Part shown: piece by piece, positions 1,335-24,969 of the stretch | Layout of the letters: each line of letters starts with the position of its first letter | How positions within the stretch are numbered: position 1 is the stretch's first letter | Source: a virus | Virus record (IMG/VR): IMGVR_UViG_3300010430_000339 | Coordinates: 1 to 30,362 of that record | Strand: one strand, 5' to 3' | DNA: 30,362 bases | Translations under genes and position numbers: made by a program | The notes under the pieces: model-generated | Databases searched by the model: none | Told to the model about the DNA's origin: nothing | Seen by the model: only the letters and a program-made list of their open reading frames with translations

Positions 1335-1539
1335 CTTTCTTCTCCTCCTTAAATCTTGGATCATTGATGAGTTGTCTTGTAGCAATATCCATAAAGTCCA
1401 CCGTATCACACTCAGGACACTGGGGGAGTTTTTCATCTGGGTCTACGCCCCATATGTTCATATTATCGGGGAGAACCGTATTACTTTCTCTTGGATCATA
1501 TTCACATTTACACTGATAACACTCAGTTAGATTTGACAT
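1327..1539 (-). CDS. Small zinc-ribbon-like protein
   Basis: This is a 70-aa protein with two Cys clusters, ECYQCKCEY near residues 6-14 and LPQCPECDTVDF near 39-50. They resemble the two knuckles of a zinc ribbon. The C-terminus is charged (DPRFKEEKKDD). GGAGG is 9 bases upstream of the ATG at 1539; an in-frame ATG two codons earlier (1545) is only 3 bases from the same site, so 1539 is preferred. It overlaps the neighbour genes on both sides. Possible roles are nucleic-acid or protein binding; nothing more specific can be said. Confidence 0.65.
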   Translation of the reverse strand: MSNLTECYQCKCEYDPRESNTVLPDNMNIWGVDPDEKLPQCPECDTVDFMDIATRQLINDPRFKEEKKDD

Positions 1540-1813
1540 TTTCATCCGCCTCCATCCTTATAAAAGTCCAAGTAATCTTTGCATCATCCTCTGATTTTTT
1601 ATCAAGTACCTCTCTGCATGCTCTAAGCATTATTTCAAGTTCTGAACTATGTCTTTTATTCAAGAAGGTCTCAGGACAGAGATCACATTTAAACGAGTCG
1701 AATCCTTCAAAAATTTGATCATGACCCCTATAACTAAATTCTAAAGGATCAAAAGTTATTATCAACTTTCCCTTACCGCACGCAGGACATACAATTCCGT
1801 GTTTGTATTCCAT
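1523..1813 (-). CDS. YgiT/MqsA-type zinc-finger-like protein
   Basis: This 96-aa protein has CPACGKGKL at residues 9-17 and KCDLCPETF near 42-50, with a YRGHDQIFEGF strand pair between. That layout (CxxCG, a -strand hairpin with an aromatic-Gly core, then CxxC-E) resembles the N-terminal zinc-binding domain of the MqsA/YgiT family. MqsA binds toxin or DNA through other parts. The C-terminal half is a helix (SSELEIMLRACREVLDKKSED), and no Cro-type HTH is visible. GAGGT precedes the ATG at 1813. It follows the tagged protein at 1818-2153 with a 4-base gap, repeating the tag-gene/zinc-gene pairing seen at 6317-7019. No toxin partner is evident. Confidence 0.65.
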   Translation of the reverse strand: MEYKHGIVCPACGKGKLIITFDPLEFSYRGHDQIFEGFDSFKCDLCPETFLNKRHSSELEIMLRACREVLDKKSEDDAKITWTFIRMEADENVKSN

Positions 1814-1817
1814 AATT

Positions 1818-2153
1818 TTACCTCAAGGATTCATGGAACCAGATGTGAAATTTAGGACCGTCGTGCCCCTTTCTAAGACAGTAATCAAAAACTTCACCTG
1901 CAGCATCATAGTTTTCATCTCCGAAAATGAGATTGTGACTTCCCTTACTGAGAGGGAATCCGTATCCTCTATTCAGAGAATCAATTATCTGCTGTTGTGA
2001 GTATCTAAAGTCGTAACTAATCATCTGGCCACGCAAGTCTGTGCCCATATATAAATGTTTCACAAATTCATCTGCGGTCAAAATATCAACGCGAACATCA
2101 ATCATGTAAGACGTCGATGAACTATTAGTCACGAAATCCGCTTTCAGTTTCAT
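1818..2153 (-). CDS. DFVTNSSS-tagged protein 1
   Basis: This 111-aa protein starts MKLKADFVTNSSSTSY, the fifth copy (in transcription order) of the N-terminal peptide also found at 5528-5953, 5965-6333, 6615-7019 and 6988-7404. After the tag comes a hydrophobic strand (MIDVRVDI), a helical middle and a C-terminal part containing EVFDYCLRKG and a final strand KFHIWFHES. EVFDYxLR also occurs in tagged protein 2 (5528-5953), so the bodies are probably remote homologues. The start lies inside the end of the upstream membrane-protein gene (29-base overlap) and lacks a strong ribosome site, suggesting translational coupling. Function unknown. Confidence 0.75.
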   Translation of the reverse strand: MKLKADFVTNSSSTSYMIDVRVDILTADEFVKHLYMGTDLRGQMISYDFRYSQQQIIDSLNRGYGFPLSKGSHNLIFGDENYDAAGEVFDYCLRKGHDGPKFHIWFHESLR

Positions 2154-2650: not shown

Positions 2651-3367
2651 TTACTCGTACACAATTATTTCAACTCGACGATTTTTCTGTCGATTGAAGG
2701 GGTTGTCTCTTCCATCCACTCTATTGGGGACGCTGGGAAAGAGTTTTCCCTGAGCCTTAATTGAGTGAATTTGGGAATCATTTACACCCTTCTCAGTGAG
2801 ATACCTTACGGCCGAATCGGCACGCCTCTTTGAGAGACTGTTGTTATACTCGTCTGAACCAATCGAGTCAGTATTACCAAGAATAACAACTTTGGTATCG
2901 GGATTGAGTATCATATCCTCAGCCACTTTATCCAGAACCTCAGCCGCATCTGGTCTGATGTTGGACTTGTCAAAGTCAAATAATGCATTGTCCCAACTAA
3001 GCACGATAGGTGCTGCTTCTTCAACAACAACTACCTCCTCCAAACACTCACAGGCTTCTTGTGCCTTGGCAAGAGCTTGCTTAAGCATGTCAAATGCCTC
3101 TGCACTACGACATTCTGTCCACGCGTTATAAGCATCACCCTTTAACTTCTGCGCCGCGTTATAGAGGTCAGGACAATTCCTCAAACCATTCTCCTCACAC
3201 TCTTTCAGTTTTTCCTCAACCTCAACCAGAGCGTTCGTGAAACCCTGGTTTTCCATTTCCGTTGAGTAAACCTGAAGTGGTTGTTCCGGGGCCTTTGCCT
3301 GCTGCGCACACGCCACTGGTAGAACCAGTACAATTGCCAGTAAAATCAATGATAATTTCCTCACCAT
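2651..3367 (-). CDS. Exported OmpA/Pal-type peptidoglycan-binding protein
   Basis: This 238-aa protein has an N-terminal signal sequence (MVRKLSLILLAIVLVLPVAC, residues 1-20). Cleavage could follow ACA at residue 21 (signal peptidase I), or C20 could be a lipobox Cys with an imperfect -3 residue. A helical linker with Cys at about 57, 65, 86, 106 and 108 follows. Residues 120-238 form an OmpA C-terminal domain: FDFDKSNIRPDA, GNTDSIGSDEYNNSLSKRRA, YLTEKGV and NRRVEI. This family binds peptidoglycan non-covalently in the periplasm or outer membrane. AAAGGAGG precedes the ATG by 9 bases. Its presence among phage genes is unusual; envelope modification, superinfection exclusion or a lysis role are possible inferences. 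Confidence 0.85.
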   Translation of the reverse strand: MVRKLSLILLAIVLVLPVACAQQAKAPEQPLQVYSTEMENQGFTNALVEVEEKLKECEENGLRNCPDLYNAAQKLKGDAYNAWTECRSAEAFDMLKQALAKAQEACECLEEVVVVEEAAPIVLSWDNALFDFDKSNIRPDAAEVLDKVAEDMILNPDTKVVILGNTDSIGSDEYNNSLSKRRADSAVRYLTEKGVNDSQIHSIKAQGKLFPSVPNRVDGRDNPFNRQKNRRVEIIVYE

Positions 3368-4776: not shown

Positions 4777-5571
4777 TTAGTCGAGGAATGTTACGCCAGC
4801 ATTCCAACGTCCTTCAAATTCTCGATTCATTATAACGAGGTGCCAACCTCGGAGTTTAACAGTTTTGTGATCTGGATGACTGACTGTACCTCTTGCATAA
4901 ACGCTATTCACTCTGACCATCTCTTGCATAATCTTACTACCATCTTTATTTAAACGACCTGTTTCAACGAGAGCTGTACTTGAACCTGTTGTCCTTATAA
5001 TCTCTGAGACCATATGGGGTGTACCGCCCATTCGACCACGAACCATCCTAACTAAAGGTTCGTTTGTGTGAATGAAATAATTTTGCCTATCAAAATCTGG
5101 TTGAGGAATAAAGTACCATTCTCCCTGTCTTATAACTTTTGCACCCCTCCTTTCCGCTTCTCTGACAGGATTTCTTTTTAAGCTCTCAATAGCTTGCTCA
5201 ACGGTCGTTATTTGAGCATCGCTTGGTAGACTTGCGATAAAGTATTCCCTCTCATCATGACCACAGAGGAGACGATCAAAAATACCTGGTTCATTCTCGA
5301 CTCCAAGTACAACATGACGTGTCTCAGGTCGATGTGAGAGAATCCTTATACGCTCATGGTTATCAATAAAGAGGATAAACTTTTCAATCTTCTTTCGTGG
5401 ATTGCGAATAATGTCAAAAGCGAAATCTGGATCTGGATCACCGCCTCTAATACTTCTTATCCTTCTGTTCCAGGCATTCTCAGCCTCACCTCTGTCATTA
5501 TGAATATCAATTTCGAGGTTGCACCTTTCAAAGTGTTTCTCCAACACTTTCTTCCAGTGGTCGTACCGCAT
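4777..5571 (-). CDS. Conserved phage protein of unknown function
   Basis: This 264-aa protein starts at ATG 5571 (MRYDHWKKVLEKHFE), chosen because AAAGGA lies 6 bases upstream; the frame is open further back. Features are LLCGHDEREYFIASLP in the middle, RQGEWYFIP near residue 170, and a C-terminal part with VYARGTVSHPDHKTVKL and GWHLVIMNREFEGRW. I recall phage proteins of unknown function sharing RQGEW(F/Y)F(I/V)P and a HPDHxT...W motif. The His/Asp pattern might bind metal, but this is a guess. It overlaps tagged protein 2 by 44 bases and is the last gene before the structured leader. Confidence 0.75.
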   Translation of the reverse strand: MRYDHWKKVLEKHFERCNLEIDIHNDRGEAENAWNRRIRSIRGGDPDPDFAFDIIRNPRKKIEKFILFIDNHERIRILSHRPETRHVVLGVENEPGIFDRLLCGHDEREYFIASLPSDAQITTVEQAIESLKRNPVREAERRGAKVIRQGEWYFIPQPDFDRQNYFIHTNEPLVRMVRGRMGGTPHMVSEIIRTTGSSTALVETGRLNKDGSKIMQEMVRVNSVYARGTVSHPDHKTVKLRGWHLVIMNREFEGRWNAGVTFLD

Positions 5572-5953
5572 CTGAAATCCTTTCCATTTGGTTTTCGCTA
5601 AATTTGGCCAGTCTTTCTCTGATCTTATCAACGTGTGCTTCAATATTTACGATTACATATGGAGCACCAGCAGGAGTATCGACTTTCTGTATGATTACTT
5701 TTAACTCACCAAGAACTCTTAGAGTATAGTCGAATACTTCTGGACAGTCATCATACATATCTGAACTTATACTCCCATCCATTATAAGTGTATTAAATGA
5801 GTCGATAACATCATCTATGTGAACTCTTGAAGTATCGAGAATATTAGCATGTTCACGTATACTGAGGTAATTTTCAATCTTAAAATCATTTGGTAGAACA
5901 ACTATAAAATTAACGGACGAACTATTCGTCACAAAATCAGATTTGATTTTCAA
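5528..5953 (-). CDS. DFVTNSSS-tagged protein 2
   Basis: With a TTG start at 5953 this is a 141-aa protein beginning MKIKSDFVTNSSSVNF. GGAGG lies 5 bases before that TTG. The in-frame GTG at 5965 overlaps the ribosome site itself and would add four residues absent from the family, so TTG is preferred. After the tag, the body reads IVVLPNDFKIENYL, a helical middle, PEVFDYTLRVLGEL and a strand YVIVNIEAHVDKIRERL. It resembles tagged protein 5 (IMFPPEFNIQDHL and NIIVNIGMSKVLDKV), so these two are true paralogues. Function unknown. Confidence 0.75.
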   Translation of the reverse strand: MKIKSDFVTNSSSVNFIVVLPNDFKIENYLSIREHANILDTSRVHIDDVIDSFNTLIMDGSISSDMYDDCPEVFDYTLRVLGELKVIIQKVDTPAGAPYVIVNIEAHVDKIRERLAKFSENQMERISDAVRPLEESVGETL

Positions 5954-5964
5954 CTTTTCCTCCA

Positions 5965-6333
5965 CTATTGTGTGGATATTGATTCAAATTTAACATTCTT
6001 GAGTTTCATTAAAAAGAAATCTGACATGTCTGGGCTAACATTAATATGTTCCATAACTATGTGCTTCATATAATATGGAACATTATCATAGTCATTGAGC
6101 ATTGAAGTAGAGTCTTCCAACCTGAAGTTTCTATCATTGAGCATTATAATCGTAGGTTGAAAGAACCTCATATGCTTAAAATCGTTTCGGTAACTGTAAA
6201 CCCTCATCAGATTCTCCATGTACGCCCCAAAGAGATCAAAGAAACTATCGAGGGTAAAATCCTCTGTCATCTCCAGATACAGATAGAAATTTGCAGAGCT
6301 ACTATTGGTTACAAAATCAGCTTTTATTTTCAT
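5965..6333 (-). CDS. DFVTNSSS-tagged protein 3
   Basis: This 122-aa protein starts MKIKADFVTNSSSANF from an ATG. The tag is followed by a strand YLYLEM and an aromatic-rich body (FTLDSFFDLFGAY, FKHMRFFQPTIIML, DNVPYYMKHIVMEHI). The body is not obviously alike to the other tagged proteins except in having a hydrophobic strand right after the tag. The ribosome site is weak (GTAAGAG). The start overlaps the end of the zinc-ribbon gene by 17 bases: the upstream gene's terminal ENKS-stop is read from the same bases that encode MKIKAD. Function unknown. Confidence 0.75.
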   Translation of the reverse strand: MKIKADFVTNSSSANFYLYLEMTEDFTLDSFFDLFGAYMENLMRVYSYRNDFKHMRFFQPTIIMLNDRNFRLEDSTSMLNDYDNVPYYMKHIVMEHINVSPDMSDFFLMKLKNVKFESISTQ

Positions 6334-6634
6334 AATCTCTTACCCATACGCTATTGCGGCCCTCCTCATCCCAAACTCTCGTAAATATGTGATTACAATT
6401 AAAACATTTGACACAACTTGATAAACTTAAGTATAATATTCCCTTGACAGCTTTTTGTCCACAGTCAGGACACAGTCTCAAATCTGTTATTAGGTAAGTA
6501 AGTTTATCGTGCCCCATTACAAGTTTATCACATGGACTAGAACAGTTGGCATAAATTAGGCACTTGGGACATGGAAAACCTTCAGGTAATATCAATTCAA
6601 GTGGAAGAGGTATCTTACAGGTGAGGGAACTCAT
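6317..6634 (-). CDS. Small Cys-rich, zinc-binding-like protein
   Basis: This 105-aa protein starts MSSLTCKIPLPLELILPEGF at ATG 6634, with AAGGAG 7 bases upstream; a longer frame from 6694 has no such site. Cys pairs are CPKC, CSSPC, CPDC and CVKCFNC, enough for two zinc sites. GHDKLTYLITDLRLCPDCG and FNCNHIF form ribbon-like hairpins. It lies between tagged proteins 4 and 3 and overlaps both (20 and 17 bases). The arrangement parallels the zinc gene after tagged protein 1. Likely a protein- or nucleic-acid-binding accessory protein; function unknown. Confidence 0.7.
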   Translation of the reverse strand: MSSLTCKIPLPLELILPEGFPCPKCLIYANCSSPCDKLVMGHDKLTYLITDLRLCPDCGQKAVKGILYLSLSSCVKCFNCNHIFTRVWDEEGRNSVWVRDYENKS

Positions 6635-7019
6635 GTCCACACTCCTTGTAGTAGCTATCATCATTGTAACTATGATGTGGAAACATTTTGTCATCCATAT
6701 CAGAAACGGATTCGTCCCTTAGTACCCACACCACCCACTTATGTTTTGTTTCTTTAACATAGTGGAGAACGTGTGAGTACAGTTGTGATTGATAATCTTC
6801 TTCCACAACCCGATCTTTAGTATGCACAATGGCATCTATGTAGGCATGTATTGCTGCCCTAATGTGATCTGTGCTGTCCCACTCTCTACCATAGGACTCC
6901 AGATATGCCTGGGCCTCCTCCTTTGTGTATATGGTATCTGGATCTTTGTAATATTTCTTCCAGTTGATGATAAAAGCAGTTGAACTGCTATTTGTCACGA
7001 AGTCTTGTTTTATCTTCAA
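6615..7019 (-). CDS. DFVTNSSS-tagged protein 4
   Basis: With a TTG start at 7019 this is 134 aa, beginning MKIKQDFVTNSSSTAF. GGAGG lies 5 bases upstream. The frame can be read from another TTG at 7031, but that one overlaps the ribosome site. After the tag comes the strand IINWKKYY, helices (EEAQAYLESYG, DHIRAAIHAYIDAIV, YSHVLHYVKE), a strand HKWVVWVL and a His/Tyr-rich tail (MFPHHSYNDDSYYKECGHEF). The His/Cys tail could bind metal. It overlaps tagged protein 5 by 32 bases. The body does not look closely related to the other copies. Function unknown. Confidence 0.75.
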   Translation of the reverse strand: MKIKQDFVTNSSSTAFIINWKKYYKDPDTIYTKEEAQAYLESYGREWDSTDHIRAAIHAYIDAIVHTKDRVVEEDYQSQLYSHVLHYVKETKHKWVVWVLRDESVSDMDDKMFPHHSYNDDSYYKECGHEFPHL

Positions 7020-7404
7020 TGAGTCCTCCAATCTCCTTTACTTTATCAAGGACTTTAGACATTCCGATATTTACTATAATATTGTTACCTTCGTGGGGTA
7101 TATCATACTCTGCTACTGTAAACTTAAGGTCTGTACAAATATCTAACACAACCCACATATAAATTCGACCCTCTTTCCACAAGTGTTCAACTATACATCC
7201 CTTCTGAAGAAGTACTTCAAAGAAATGTGTTATTTTTTTTACATCTAACTCAAGGTCTTGACCTATTGTGTAATGCTCGAATCTATTAAAAATTCCTCCC
7301 TTTTCCAGCATTGACAGATGGTCTTGTATATTAAATTCTGGTGGGAACATAATAACATAACAGGCAGAAGAACTGTTAGTCACAAAGTCAGCTTTTATTT
7401 TCAC
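6988..7404 (-). CDS. DFVTNSSS-tagged protein 5
   Basis: With a GTG start at 7404 this is 138 aa, beginning MKIKADFVTNSSSACY. GGAGGAG lies immediately upstream with 5 bases of spacing. The frame extends to an ATG at 7428, but that would put eight unrelated residues before the tag. The body starts VIMFPPEFNIQDHLSML, has a helical middle, a strand MWVVLDICTDL and ends NIIVNIGMSKVLDKVKEIGGL; this matches tagged protein 2. It is the first tagged gene after the radical SAM and GNAT genes and overlaps the GNAT gene by 17 bases, sharing the same ENKS-stop overlap as tagged protein 3. Function unknown. Confidence 0.75.
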   Translation of the reverse strand: MKIKADFVTNSSSACYVIMFPPEFNIQDHLSMLEKGGIFNRFEHYTIGQDLELDVKKITHFFEVLLQKGCIVEHLWKEGRIYMWVVLDICTDLKFTVAEYDIPHEGNNIIVNIGMSKVLDKVKEIGGLIEDKTRLRDK

Positions 7405-7774
7405 TTCGCTCCTCCGGAAATCTAACAACTACGTGCTCTGTCACTTCAAAGAATCCGTATTTCCCAAACCACTCTTTCAACTCCTCTAAATTCATTCGGC
7501 CATAGGGATTTATTGAGTTGATAATTGCGACTCCTCTCTCATCACAAATTTCAACCAATCGTTTCATCATGACTGTACCATGACCCTTTCCTTCTTTTAC
7601 TGCTTTTATTCTGTGAAAAAAGAATAAAGGGTATGGACACTCCACATCATGTCCTAATAGAAACTCTTTGTGCTTCTCCATGCCAACTACTGAAAGTTCG
7701 CAGATTCCCCTATTGTTAGTGGATATGCAGATAACTTCATCATTAATTATTTCATGAGCTATCTCTGGTTTCAT
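7388..7774 (-). CDS. GNAT-family N-acetyltransferase
   Basis: This 128-aa protein has the GNAT acetyl-CoA-binding segment KEGKGHGTVMMKRLVEIC at about residues 60-77 (Q/RxxGxG/A type). The preceding strand is PLFFFHRIKAV, and the usual C-terminal part follows (GVAIINSINPYG, EWFGKYGFFEVTEHVVVRF). The family transfers an acetyl group to an amine on a small molecule, peptide or protein; the substrate is not evident. Start ATG 7774 has AAGAGGAG 6 bases upstream. It sits between the radical SAM gene and the first tagged gene and overlaps the latter, so acetylation of a tagged protein is a possibility, not a demonstrated one. Confidence 0.8.
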   Translation of the reverse strand: MKPEIAHEIINDEVICISTNNRGICELSVVGMEKHKEFLLGHDVECPYPLFFFHRIKAVKEGKGHGTVMMKRLVEICDERGVAIINSINPYGRMNLEELKEWFGKYGFFEVTEHVVVRFPEERSENKS

Positions 7775-7786
7775 GCTTGACTCCTC

Positions 7787-8788
7787 TTAAAAATCGTATG
7801 GACACCTTTCTTTGTTCTCCTCCAACATTTGTCTGGTTTCCACAAATGCATGACTTAATTTCCATGCATCCTCAATTGACATATCTTTGAGGGATATTCC
7901 ATACTTATCCTTGTCTGCAAATGAGCATGGCATCAACATCATGTCTGGACTTATGTAACATGACATACGAGCAGCCTCACAAGTATCAAGAAACATCTCC
8001 TCCATCTTAGTTAGAGTTGTGGTTTGTGTAATTCGATTGACTAGGCAAGAGTCCATGCCGATTTTGAAGTTTGTGTTATTCTCCAATCTCAGACTAATGA
8101 ACTCTTTCAAATCTTCATTTGTCAATGCCCAGTCTATTAGTTTTTTGCCCCTCCCTTGAGGTTTGAACAATAAGAAAATGACAGCATTTAGTCTGTCTAA
8201 ATTAATCTTTCTATCCCAAACATCCTCACCTTTGAGGATATTTACTGCTTTACCTAGAGATTCTTTAGACAAAAGGAAGTGTAGATTTGTCTTTATATCA
8301 GAATCCATGAGTCTTTGTAAAGCGCCAAATGTGAAATCCTGACCGTAATCTGATACTGCGACAGCCCCACACATCTTTGATATCTCGATGTGTTCGCTTG
8401 TCAGATCTAACCCTGAGGTTGTGTAATTGGGGACAACGACATTTTCCCGAGCATAACCAACAATCTCTCCAAAGTTTTCATGCAGGTTTGGGTCCCCCCT
8501 TCCACCTAGAGCTACCTGATTTGTATAGGTTTTAGATTCATCCATTATCTTCCTGAAGTCCTCAAGTTTCATGTTTGGTTGCTCTTCCCCACCTTGATAG
8601 CAAAACTTACACTTGTTTGGACAATGACCCATAATCCCAATGTCAATTAGATTTGGATAGTCCAGCATGAAAGGATCAGGAAAACCATGTTTTCCAAAGA
8701 TGATCTCTTTACCATTTGCTACATTAAAAATAATTACATACCTACCCGTCTCAACAATTTTCTTCATTCCAACCATTCGTGCAACCAT
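7787..8788 (-). CDS. Radical SAM enzyme with SPASM/twitch-like C-terminal cysteines
   Basis: This 333-aa protein has the radical SAM cluster motif CPNKCKFC at about residues 56-63 (CxxxCxxC), preceded by the strand LIDIGIMGH. A GGRGDPN segment near 95-101 fills the place of the GGEP motif. The C-terminal third has further cysteines (near 247, 269, 276, 287 and 328, including TCEAARMSCYI, MLMPCSF and a final ERCPYDF), and AWKLSHAF resembles SPASM/twitch domains, which hold auxiliary iron-sulfur clusters. Many such enzymes modify peptides or proteins. AGGAGG precedes ATG 8788. It lies upstream of GNAT and four tagged genes in one operon. The substrate is unknown; the tagged proteins are the obvious candidates by position only. 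Confidence 0.85.
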   Translation of the reverse strand: MVARMVGMKKIVETGRYVIIFNVANGKEIIFGKHGFPDPFMLDYPNLIDIGIMGHCPNKCKFCYQGGEEQPNMKLEDFRKIMDESKTYTNQVALGGRGDPNLHENFGEIVGYARENVVVPNYTTSGLDLTSEHIEISKMCGAVAVSDYGQDFTFGALQRLMDSDIKTNLHFLLSKESLGKAVNILKGEDVWDRKINLDRLNAVIFLLFKPQGRGKKLIDWALTNEDLKEFISLRLENNTNFKIGMDSCLVNRITQTTTLTKMEEMFLDTCEAARMSCYISPDMMLMPCSFADKDKYGISLKDMSIEDAWKLSHAFVETRQMLEENKERCPYDF

Positions 8789-12216: not shown

Positions 12217-12999
12217 ATGCCGTTTAAGGGTTTTGGTGTGTCGTATCCTGAATACGAGGTTATCACACCTCAGACGAAAATGTCATTTCATGTGAGATCG
12301 CTGAATGTCTCGGAAGAAGAACGACTTAAAGGAAGTCTGGTCACACCACAAAAAGTTACAGAACATTTAAATAGATGTCTTTTTGATTCAGTTGTCAAGA
12401 AGCCCGAAGCAGTTACTAATTTCAAGTCATTTCTGGCAAATGTGACATTGAAAGATAGAGATGCAATTTTATATGGTCTCTATCACATTACCTATGAAGA
12501 AATAAGAAATTACGATGTTAGATGTCTTGCTTGTAGAAAGATGTTTCCAGTTACGGTTAAGGCTTCTAGTACATTTAGTATTAATATGTACCCGGGTAAT
12601 GACATATTGACAAAAAGAGTTAAAGTTCCACTTCCGATAACTACAGGCGTCTCAGCAATTATCAAACAACCAACACTGAAAGACGAAGAAAGATTAATGA
12701 AGGAACTTTCTGGAATTAGCCTTGACGTAATTACTGAAATGCTAATTCTTGACCAGTTTGAACAGGACGTTCCAGAGGCCAAAGAACCTAAAGTCTACAG
12801 TGAACCACAGGATATGAGAGATGCATATTTATCTCTTCCAGCAAAAGATAAAAGAGCTATCCATGATAGTTATCTGGAGGAGTTTGGCAAATATGGTCTT
12901 GATTTGAAAATGAGAACTAACTGTACATTCTGTGGTCAAGATGAAATTGTTGACGTCGATTTAGTTGACAGCTTTTTTCGGATGGTATTCGGAGCATGA
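12217..12999 (+). CDS. T4 gp26-like baseplate hub assembly / tail chaperone-like protein
   Basis: This 260-aa protein has a Cys pair near residues 103-106 (CLAC) and another near 236-239 (CTFC), flanking a helical core (DERLMKELSGISLDVITEMLILDQF). This matches the layout of the T4-type baseplate protein family (gp26), whose members help assemble the hub. AAAGGAG precedes ATG 12217. The C-terminus (VDLVDSFFRMVFGA) ends six codons after a run TTT TTT CGG, where a +1 shift would continue into the next frame. Location between the tail-tube and gp25 genes fits a tail-assembly role. Confidence 0.55.
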   Translation: MPFKGFGVSYPEYEVITPQTKMSFHVRSLNVSEEERLKGSLVTPQKVTEHLNRCLFDSVVKKPEAVTNFKSFLANVTLKDRDAILYGLYHITYEEIRNYDVRCLACRKMFPVTVKASSTFSINMYPGNDILTKRVKVPLPITTGVSAIIKQPTLKDEERLMKELSGISLDVITEMLILDQFEQDVPEAKEPKVYSEPQDMRDAYLSLPAKDKRAIHDSYLEEFGKYGLDLKMRTNCTFCGQDEIVDVDLVDSFFRMVFGA

Positions 13000-23340: not shown

Positions 23341-24969
23341 CTAACTCATGTACGTTTCTACTGTATTAACAAATGGATCATCAAGTTCTCCTTCAATAAG
23401 TCTTCTTCGTACATCATCTATAATTTTCTGATTCCCAAACGGAACAACAGTATCCCTATAGTTGAGGTCCATTATAGCTTCTATAGAACTTTCCTGTACT
23501 CCCGGTAGACCAATCATCATTGGTGGATCATATTTACGAACATAATATGCACACGCAGCAGCAAGTGATAAGTCATCATTACAACCACTATCGGCCTCGA
23601 CTCTGCCACTTGGTTTACTTATCAATCCAATTAACTCAAGGATCAATCTTTTTGATTTGATACACTCAGGAAATTCACTTACATAAGAATAAAGAGAATC
23701 AATCATTAGTGGCCTTGTCCTTGAGTTTGTATTCAAACCAGGCACAATTTGGTCTTTCCCCTTTTTCTCCTTGTACATCATCATTGAAAGATCAGTATTA
23801 TTAATTGTTTCAGCAACCTGATTTCCATATGAATTATTTTCAATAACTATACAACCAGGATATTGAATACCGGCTATTTTAACAACTTCTGTAAAGTCAG
23901 TTACTGAACATTTTCCTTGAAATTCCCAAACCTGTTCAAGAGTTTCGTAGTCGAACACTTCAATAGCTGATTTATCACTGCCAAACTCAGGAGCAGTATC
24001 AACCCCTGCAATATAAAATCTTCCAGGAATTGGGTCTGAAAACTTCCATATCTCTCCATTATATAACTTCATAACGTTAATTGGTTCAATCTTTATGTCC
24101 TGTAGATGCTCAATTATATCAGCATCAAAGAATGAACCTGTCGACGCAATGAACTTAAGTTCCAGCTCCTGTTGAATTTTTCTTTTATCGTGGCCCCAAA
24201 GTTCACACTGAGTTTTATACCAATCTGGATCCTTGGCCAACTGTGGTATATCTCCCCAGTGAATCTGTACTGGTTTAAAAATATCATCTCTGCTGATCGC
24301 TCTTTGATACCGTTCATAAAACCACTTACCAACTCCTTGAGTCTTATTTGGAGTAGAAAGTATTACTGTACCAAAGGGGACTTTCTTCTCCCTCGCATTC
24401 TTCTGATTTGTTGATAACGCCGGAACCATACCGGTCCACGCATCGTCGATAAATTTAATAAATGCTGCTTCATCAATAACGAGGAAAGTGACGGATTTAC
24501 CACGTAAAGTCTTCTCAGGAGCATTCGGGGCAACCGGCGAGGCGAAACATTTACAGCCATTGCTTAATATAAATGTCCTTTCTGTTCTCTTAGTAAACTT
24601 AGGAGCCATCCATTTGGGCAACTTATCAATCATACTCATAATGTGACGAGCAAAATCAGTTGCCTCGGGTGCATCTTTTGAGATGATTCCAATGACTACG
24701 TTCTTATAAAACGTTACTAGCCAACAGATCAATGCTTGAATTATAGTTGAGATTCCTATTTGTCTGGATTTTAGAACGAAAATAAAATGTTTTCGGAGAA
24801 TCTCCATTATCAGATTTTCTTGTGCACCGTAGGGAATTAGAGGTACGTCTCCCCCAGGCAATTCAATCTTTACATACTTTCGGCAAAAATAGAGAAAAGA
24901 CTGTTTGCACTTCAGATATTCGGAGACATACTTCTCAGCATGATCTTCGAGTTTCTGTGCATTTATCAT
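23341..24969 (-). CDS. Terminase large subunit (gp17-like)
   Basis: This 542-aa protein has an ATPase with Walker A-type LKSRQIGIST at about residues 66-75, Walker B FLVIDEAAF at 162-170, and the coupling motif TVILSTPNKT at 201-210. The nuclease part has AGVDTAPEFGSDKSA near 321-335, IVIENNSYG near 375-382 and GCNDDLSLAAACAYYV near the C-terminus, giving the three acidic metal sites of the RNase H-like fold. The enzyme cuts concatemeric DNA and pumps it into the prohead at the portal. AAGGAG lies 8 bases before ATG 24969. It starts the minus-strand structural operon just downstream of the candidate promoter at 25038-25049; no small subunit or portal gene is in the window. Confidence 0.93.
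   Translation of the reverse strand: MINAQKLEDHAEKYVSEYLKCKQSFLYFCRKYVKIELPGGDVPLIPYGAQENLIMEILRKHFIFVLKSRQIGISTIIQALICWLVTFYKNVVIGIISKDAPEATDFARHIMSMIDKLPKWMAPKFTKRTERTFILSNGCKCFASPVAPNAPEKTLRGKSVTFLVIDEAAFIKFIDDAWTGMVPALSTNQKNAREKKVPFGTVILSTPNKTQGVGKWFYERYQRAISRDDIFKPVQIHWGDIPQLAKDPDWYKTQCELWGHDKRKIQQELELKFIASTGSFFDADIIEHLQDIKIEPINVMKLYNGEIWKFSDPIPGRFYIAGVDTAPEFGSDKSAIEVFDYETLEQVWEFQGKCSVTDFTEVVKIAGIQYPGCIVIENNSYGNQVAETINNTDLSMMMYKEKKGKDQIVPGLNTNSRTRPLMIDSLYSYVSEFPECIKSKRLILELIGLISKPSGRVEADSGCNDDLSLAAACAYYVRKYDPPMMIGLPGVQESSIEAIMDLNYRDTVVPFGNQKIIDDVRRRLIEGELDDPFVNTVETYMS

Follow-up and report, generated by a model that had tools for sequence, protein, structure and literature searches.

A radical S-adenosylmethionine (SAM) enzyme and a short N-terminal protein tag belong to one and the same genetic system, which is found in both phages and cells, where their genes are co-oriented and retained together. 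We came to this system from IMG/VR virus record IMGVR_UViG_3300010430_000339, positions 1 to 30,362 (the window, by which we mean this whole stretch of 30,362 nucleotides). This record of 30 kb covers part of the genome of a tailed phage, with a T4-type terminase (23341-24969) and a T4 baseplate protein (12217-12999). In the window, a radical-SAM gene lies near several small genes whose products begin with the same tag, and the original prediction linked the two on gene order only. The link is borne out: enzyme and tag occur together whichever of them is used to choose the genomes, in viruses and in cells, and across enzymes that are about 25-40% identical. We think that the enzyme is a dedicated maturase of the SPASM/twitch type that recognizes the tag and modifies it, or an adjacent site, on many proteins. 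We put the probability of this explanation at roughly two in three.

The tag is Ser-rich, 16 residues long, and lies at the very N-terminus, with the initiator Met as its first residue. The consensus of 251 non-identical tags is M-K-[IVT]-[R/K]-x-[G/D]-F-V-[S/T]-N-S-S-[S/T]-x-x-[F/Y], in which F, N, S, and S are near-invariant (some positions were fixed in advance by the search pattern or the counting expression). Both AGY and TCN codons are used at each Ser position, so selection acts on the protein and not on the DNA. A hydrophobic strand-like stretch comes right after the tag. As for the rest of the tagged proteins, which have a median length of 134 amino acids (range 42-717), we found great diversity. 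With the tag removed, 250 bodies fell into at least 68 clusters, and a second set of 273 bodies fell into 62; the largest body family has 24 cellular and 21 viral members. Among 92 tagged representatives, a leucine-rich-repeat protein was the only one with a match in Pfam, and NCBIfam yielded almost no matches; 47 of the 92 match phrog_7397, whose function is unknown. The longest protein, with 717 amino acids, is from Fusibacter (L372:5265-7418), and a Lokiarchaeota contig encodes a tagged leucine-rich-repeat protein of 423 amino acids (L386:2640-3911).

We searched for the G-type tag with a degenerate DNA pattern, MK[IVM][R/S]xGFV[S/T]N with three Ser-like codons after it. It matched at least 120 stretches in IMG/VR, and the reversed pattern matched none. 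Another 42 stretches turned up in the genomes of cellular species from the Bacillota, Spirochaetota, Verrucomicrobiota, Bacteroidota, Myxococcota, Promethearchaeota, and other phyla.

In viruses, the association holds in both directions. From the tag side, we considered 50 large viral contigs that were chosen solely by the tag DNA pattern, and 39 of them encode a member of the enzyme family (at least 179 bits), as compared to 0 of 46 control contigs (Fisher p = 4e-17). The controls were picked by an unrelated 15-mer and are shorter on average than the tag contigs, which weakens the comparison; one control had a generic radical-SAM match of 26 bits. In 36 of the 39 contigs, the enzyme has a tag no more than about 10 kb away, where 6.4 would be expected for one randomly placed tag. 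These contigs have up to 11 tags per locus; 169 tags are on the strand of the enzyme and 2 are on the opposite strand, with 152 downstream and 19 upstream. From the enzyme side, we chose 80 loci by the enzyme only, using a pattern from a 5-row enzyme alignment. Forty-nine of these loci had not come up in the tag-first scan. In 41 of the 49, a tag lies no more than 10 kb away, and all 168 of the tags are on the enzyme's strand. The 80 control loci (687 kb) contain no tag (p = 6e-26). Because related contigs inflate these p values, the phylogenetic evidence carries more weight. The enzyme itself is uncommon among named phages: with the window enzyme as the query, 172 of 50,697 records match. We also saw a tag sequence after a radical-SAM gene in which stop codons cut the reading after NSSSTL (L011:3192-3260), which could be a decayed tagged gene or a sequencing error.

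Among T4-type phages, enzyme and tag are both present or both absent in 10 of 10. Lw1 and GAP161 (Pseudotevenvirus) and KP27 (Slopekvirus) each combine the enzyme with two tags, and both are missing from T4, RB69, RB49, JS98, KVP40, Aeh1, and 44RR. The enzyme of Lw1 is gp161, and gp111 and gp116 are tagged proteins of this phage; RB43, which like Lw1 infects laboratory E. coli, has a homolog of the enzyme. In Vibrio phage D479, five tagged genes lie at most 12 kb from the enzyme. A tree of 89 enzymes contains a 46-member clade (phages and a few cellular contigs), the viral clade of the window, and cellular clades, and tags are present in all of these. Nine enzymes from Bacillota and Mycoplasmatota form the sister group of the window's clade (99/93), and six of the nine are in operons with STAND NTPases. 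The tags themselves differ between clades. At tag position +2, the 46-member clade has S (173 of 174 tags), while the window's clade (35 of 35) and its sister (8 of 8) have T; at position -3, the window's clade has K and nearly all others have R. Finally, one protein of Salmonella phage Arash is a natural fusion: it opens with a variant tag (IRYGFATNSSSSHS), possibly a second dialect, and the enzyme makes up its C-terminal part (L032:7530-8960; annotated as a methyltransferase). Other radical-SAM proteins that are related to the Arash enzyme are found in the Microcystis phages MaMV-DC and LMM01, in Prevotella Lak phages, and in the Thermus phages phiYS40 and TMA.

In cells, 35 of 41 genomes that were picked by their tag encode the enzyme (E <= 1e-20), and the tagged gene mostly adjoins it directly. 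About 15 loci share, in whole or in part, the order of a STAND/NACHT NTPase, an untagged protein of about 130 amino acids, a tagged protein of about 135 amino acids, and the radical-SAM enzyme (L389 and L390 are examples); one recurrent neighbor family is seen in 14 loci and another in 13. By profile comparison, the small untagged protein weakly resembles the tagged one (probability 80%). The NTPases resemble Avs2 models (4.8e-29 for L389 and 8.7e-48 for L403). From the Avs2-like NTPase and its neighborhood, we think that the cellular module probably serves in phage defense. In L369, an Avs1a-like metallo-beta-lactamase (MBL) protein (NCBIfam 9e-68, under that model's cut-off) adjoins a trypsin-like/NACHT protein; in this locus, from Acetatifactor muris (L369:3877-7997), these two genes lie immediately upstream of those for the small protein, the tagged protein, and the radical-SAM enzyme. 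This is an Avs1-like pair of nuclease and protease, a pairing that has been shown to act in AVAST (PMC12799240). Among 299 genomes of Lachnospiraceae, 6 have the enzyme, with adjacent tagged genes at 6 of their 7 loci. One Lachnospiraceae locus (L542:8918-11141) has four tagged genes in a row after the radical-SAM gene; these tags are of the D type, as in the window, and one is degenerate (MKIRSDYVTNLSSSSF).

What sort of enzyme is this? The window enzyme scores 31.7 bits against Radical_SAM of Pfam (PF04055; cut-off 29.5), and its cluster motif, CPNKCKFC, is a CX3CX2C motif at C56, C60, and C63. These three Cys are kept in at least 96% of 97 homologs. The C-terminal Cys that had been pointed out along with this motif are conserved as well: C248, C270, C288, and C329 are kept in 92-98% of the 97, as one would expect with a single auxiliary Fe-S cluster of the twitch/SPASM type. 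A cellular member (L389) scores 25.3 bits against Pfam's SPASM, over the cut-off of 21.5. Profile searches of the PDB found SkfB (1.5e-10) and SuiB (6e-6), both peptide maturases, as the nearest chains, and the best NCBIfam models for a cellular member are the mycofactocin maturase (MftC) and WgkB, all far under cut-off. The window enzyme also matches phrog_7293 (4e-30), another family of unknown function. By its sequence, the enzyme represents a new family within the neighborhood of the maturases. It does not appear to be a prokaryotic viperin, as its score is far under the curated cut-off (17.8 bits for the viperin model, which requires 180). We also rejected QueE or another nucleoside enzyme as the best assignment: the nearest NCBIfam and PDB matches are mostly SPASM/twitch maturases, and a clear assignment to a nucleoside or cofactor pathway, which had been named as a reason to give up the link to the tag, did not emerge.

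The relevant genes of the window are as follows.

7787-8788, minus strand: radical-SAM enzyme, 333 amino acids (Pfam PF04055, phrog_7293, conserved Cys).
7388-7774, minus strand: GNAT-like open reading frame, between the radical-SAM gene and tagged protein 1.
6988-7404, minus strand: tagged protein 1 (VKIKADFVTNSSSACY), GTG start, 138 amino acids, assigned by tag register.
6615-7019, minus strand: tagged protein 2 (KIKQDFVTNSSSTAF), TTG start, 134 amino acids, with its own body family.
6317-6694, minus strand: zinc-ribbon open reading frame, untagged and inside the cluster, with a probable start at 6634; it has the same position in L006.
5965-6333, minus strand: tagged protein 3 (MKIKADFVTNSSSANF), ATG start, 122 amino acids, with its own body family.
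5528-5953, minus strand: tagged protein 4 (KIKSDFVTNSSSVNF), TTG start, 141 amino acids, assigned by tag register.
1818-2153, minus strand: tagged protein 5 (MKLKADFVTNSSSTSY), ATG start, 111 amino acids, apart from the main cluster.

The four tagged genes and the zinc-ribbon gene of the cluster, as well as the fifth tagged gene elsewhere, are thus as originally described, with revised starts. Of 280 tags, 276 have a start codon exactly 6 codons ahead of their Phe, so we place the starts in the window at 7404, 7019, 6333, 5953, and 2153. With these coordinates, the overlaps that had been reported throughout the cluster (12-44 bases) are real after the GNAT-like gene (about 17, 32, 20, and 17 nucleotides), but the radical-SAM and GNAT-like genes are separated by a gap of 12 nucleotides, and the last two tagged genes (starts at 6333 and 5953) are 11 nucleotides apart. 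The bodies of tagged proteins 1 and 4 are homologous to each other. Members of the body family of tagged protein 4 carry the tag in L116, a distant viral contig, and lack it in L009 and L015; the relatives of tagged protein 5 in L086, L118, and L123 are also tagged. The untagged homologs (L009:10980-11585 and L015:11397-12071) have a different N-terminal extension and lie downstream of the radical-SAM gene, directly after it in L009, and they are possible untagged partners of tagged subunits. A tblastn search with tagged protein 4 as the query gave no match, nor did one with just the 20 amino acids of the tag, a query that was probably too short or removed by filtering. None of the GNAT-like and tagged open reading frames of the window belongs to a Pfam family above cut-off. 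Two other genes near tagged protein 5 are worth mentioning. One (2651-3367, minus strand) encodes a protein with an OmpA/Pal-like domain (Pfam OmpA, 3e-18), in a phage, with a start like that of a signal peptide or lipoprotein. The other (1523-1813, minus strand) encodes a small zinc-ribbon protein with a marginal match to the MqsA antitoxin (30.2 bits; cut-off 30).

The GNAT-like gene, which was originally proposed to be part of the system, did not fare as well. By eye, it has a GNAT-like motif A and a WFGKYGFFEV end; it matches nothing in Pfam or NCBIfam, and its PHROG match is weak. Its homologs are confined to close relatives of the window (including L006), and we did not find them in viral loci that are 50% identical, in the second viral clade, or in the cellular loci. 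This rules it out as a conserved partner. It is probably not a core part of the system, and is accessory at most.

How might the system work? The chemistry, the site of modification, and the purpose we infer in steps, which we list in order of falling confidence. The module would consist of one radical-SAM enzyme and several clients with only their N-terminal tag in common, and K-x-[R/K]-x-[G/D]-F-V-[S/T]-N-S-S-S would be the recognition element that the enzyme binds, much as the original prediction had it. Because the clients share nothing else, we place the modification in or beside the tag, most likely in the N-S-S-S block. The modified tag would then alter what the client interacts with or how it acts. 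In cells, the modification may feed the STAND sensor. Last, large phages may carry the enzyme and up to 11 tagged proteins for counter-defense or for host takeover; the mixture of cellular and viral members in the largest body family fits this without proving it.

There are several reasons for caution about this explanation. The window enzyme itself scores just 14.9 bits against SPASM, under the cut-off. Among the tag-first contigs, 11 of 50 lack the enzyme: 5 of these have another radical-SAM protein, and in 6 we found none. Conversely, about half of the 27 loci nearest to the window (L008, L009, L012, L014, L018-L024, and L027) show the enzyme without a tag in the available sequence. These tagless loci are fragmentary, and the gene that follows the enzyme in L009 encodes the untagged relative of a tagged body. 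The covariation of S or T with the clade of the enzyme may reflect nothing more than shared inheritance within loci. And we found no RRE/PqqD domain, as judged by Pfam, in the cluster of the window or in the 92 tagged proteins, a result that leaves room for divergent RREs and for RREs in other neighbors. All the same, tags are rarely found without the enzyme, which is the opposite of what had been named as grounds for abandoning the link.

One might suppose that the tag only docks the enzyme, or serves as a structural adaptor, and that the chemistry takes place on a residue in the client's body or on a third molecule. Many maturases keep the leader and the modified site apart; also, the basic residues of the tag (K at -5 and R/K at -3) and its aromatic residue look like a docking motif, and a hydrophobic strand-like stretch follows. 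But the bodies are unrelated (at least 60 clusters), hence they have no common site to modify outside of the tag and the adjoining residues, and F-V-[S/T]-N-S-S is the most strictly conserved part. We consider docking alone to be unlikely. We are more skeptical of the idea that the tag serves in targeting or packaging (to the virion, the phage nucleus, or the membrane) and that the enzyme is a neighbor with no direct action on it. Although targeting signals are typically short N-terminal tags that unrelated proteins share, the link to the enzyme is reciprocal and same-strand, it holds in cellular genomes that have no virion or phage nucleus, and tag and enzyme are fused in Arash. It seems just as improbable that the enzyme acts on a nucleotide, a cofactor, or heme, like viperin, MoaA, or NirJ, with the tagged proteins as regulators or carriers. 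There are weak matches to pVip (24.7 bits, 3.5e-6) and to NirJ2 (6e-12), but the NirJ2 score is 45.7 of the 500 bits needed and the viperin score falls far short as well, SkfB and SuiB are the nearest PDB chains, the MftC and WgkB models score best for a cellular member, and no pathway genes recur nearby.

Another idea is compatible with modification of the tag by the enzyme: the tagged proteins of phages could be decoys or inhibitors that mimic the tagged subunit of the cellular STAND operon. The mixed membership of the largest body family, the Avs2-like NTPases of the cellular loci, and the sister relationship between the window enzyme and a cellular, largely STAND-linked clade (99/93) all favor this. 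On the other hand, phages also retain the enzyme and many tagged bodies that are unseen in cells; we view mimicry as possible rather than probable. Similarly, we would advance only tentatively a more general account of N-terminal marking, in which the same radical-derived mark is placed on many proteins and acts as the switch of an NLR-like STAND sensor in bacteria and archaea, and phages pirated both enzyme and tag to make marked decoys or inhibitors.

Among the nearest known systems are the maturases of ribosomally synthesized and post-translationally modified peptides (RiPPs). Like SkfB, SuiB, MftC, and WgkB, the enzyme has a radical-SAM core, the C-terminal Cys expected for an auxiliary cluster, and small adjoining partners with a conserved segment. 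Unlike in those systems, the partners are full proteins (median about 134 amino acids) with unrelated bodies, and no precursor peptide with a core was found; there are up to 11 clients per enzyme, the tag is at the extreme N-terminus, the system is mainly phage-encoded, and the enzyme has no fused N-terminal domain of the size of an RRE. Nearby, we saw partners of 42-717 amino acids and no short leader-core precursor. As far as sequences can tell, the system would work like a radical-SAM maturase and, by the tests made, is not a RiPP system; it may be better thought of as radical-SAM protein maturation of unusual reach.

Among conflict systems, the cellular form shares with AVAST (Avs1/Avs2) an Avs2-like NTPase in its operon and, in L369, the pairing of an MBL protein with a protease-NTPase (PMC12799240). 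The window differs, as no candidate STAND NTPase is present among its open reading frames; we saw these only in cellular loci. Like prokaryotic viperins (pVip), these are radical-SAM enzymes with a probable tie to antiviral defense, but they have Cys for a putative auxiliary cluster and tagged protein partners. In the vWA-MoxR/FtsH ternary conflict systems, a radical-SAM effector was proposed to modify a separately encoded peptide effector (PMC7159879). This is the closest idea that we found in print; the NTPase there is of another type, and the passage on it mentions neither a shared N-terminal tag nor a phage counterpart. We found no PADLOC, NCBIfam, or Pfam model that names the tag or the enzyme family, and no PADLOC or NCBIfam model that joins Avs with radical SAM and a tagged subunit. 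In the open-access full text of PubMed Central, which leaves subscription papers outside the search, we found the tag string used in this sense nowhere (the lone match to FVTNSSS is an unrelated paper on hemp seed), nor did we find a paper that brings radical SAM together with STAND and a shared tag.

Two families of small hypothetical phage genes, phrog_7397 and phrog_7293, thereby become one testable system. It ranges from cultured T4-type phages that infect E. coli and Klebsiella, through many large uncultured phages, to a cellular STAND operon. If our explanation is correct, then this would be marking at the level of proteins, with one enzyme for many clients, and possibly a new mechanism of conflict between phages and their hosts. 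The tag would also be a candidate for a short, genetically encoded handle for site-specific radical chemistry on proteins.

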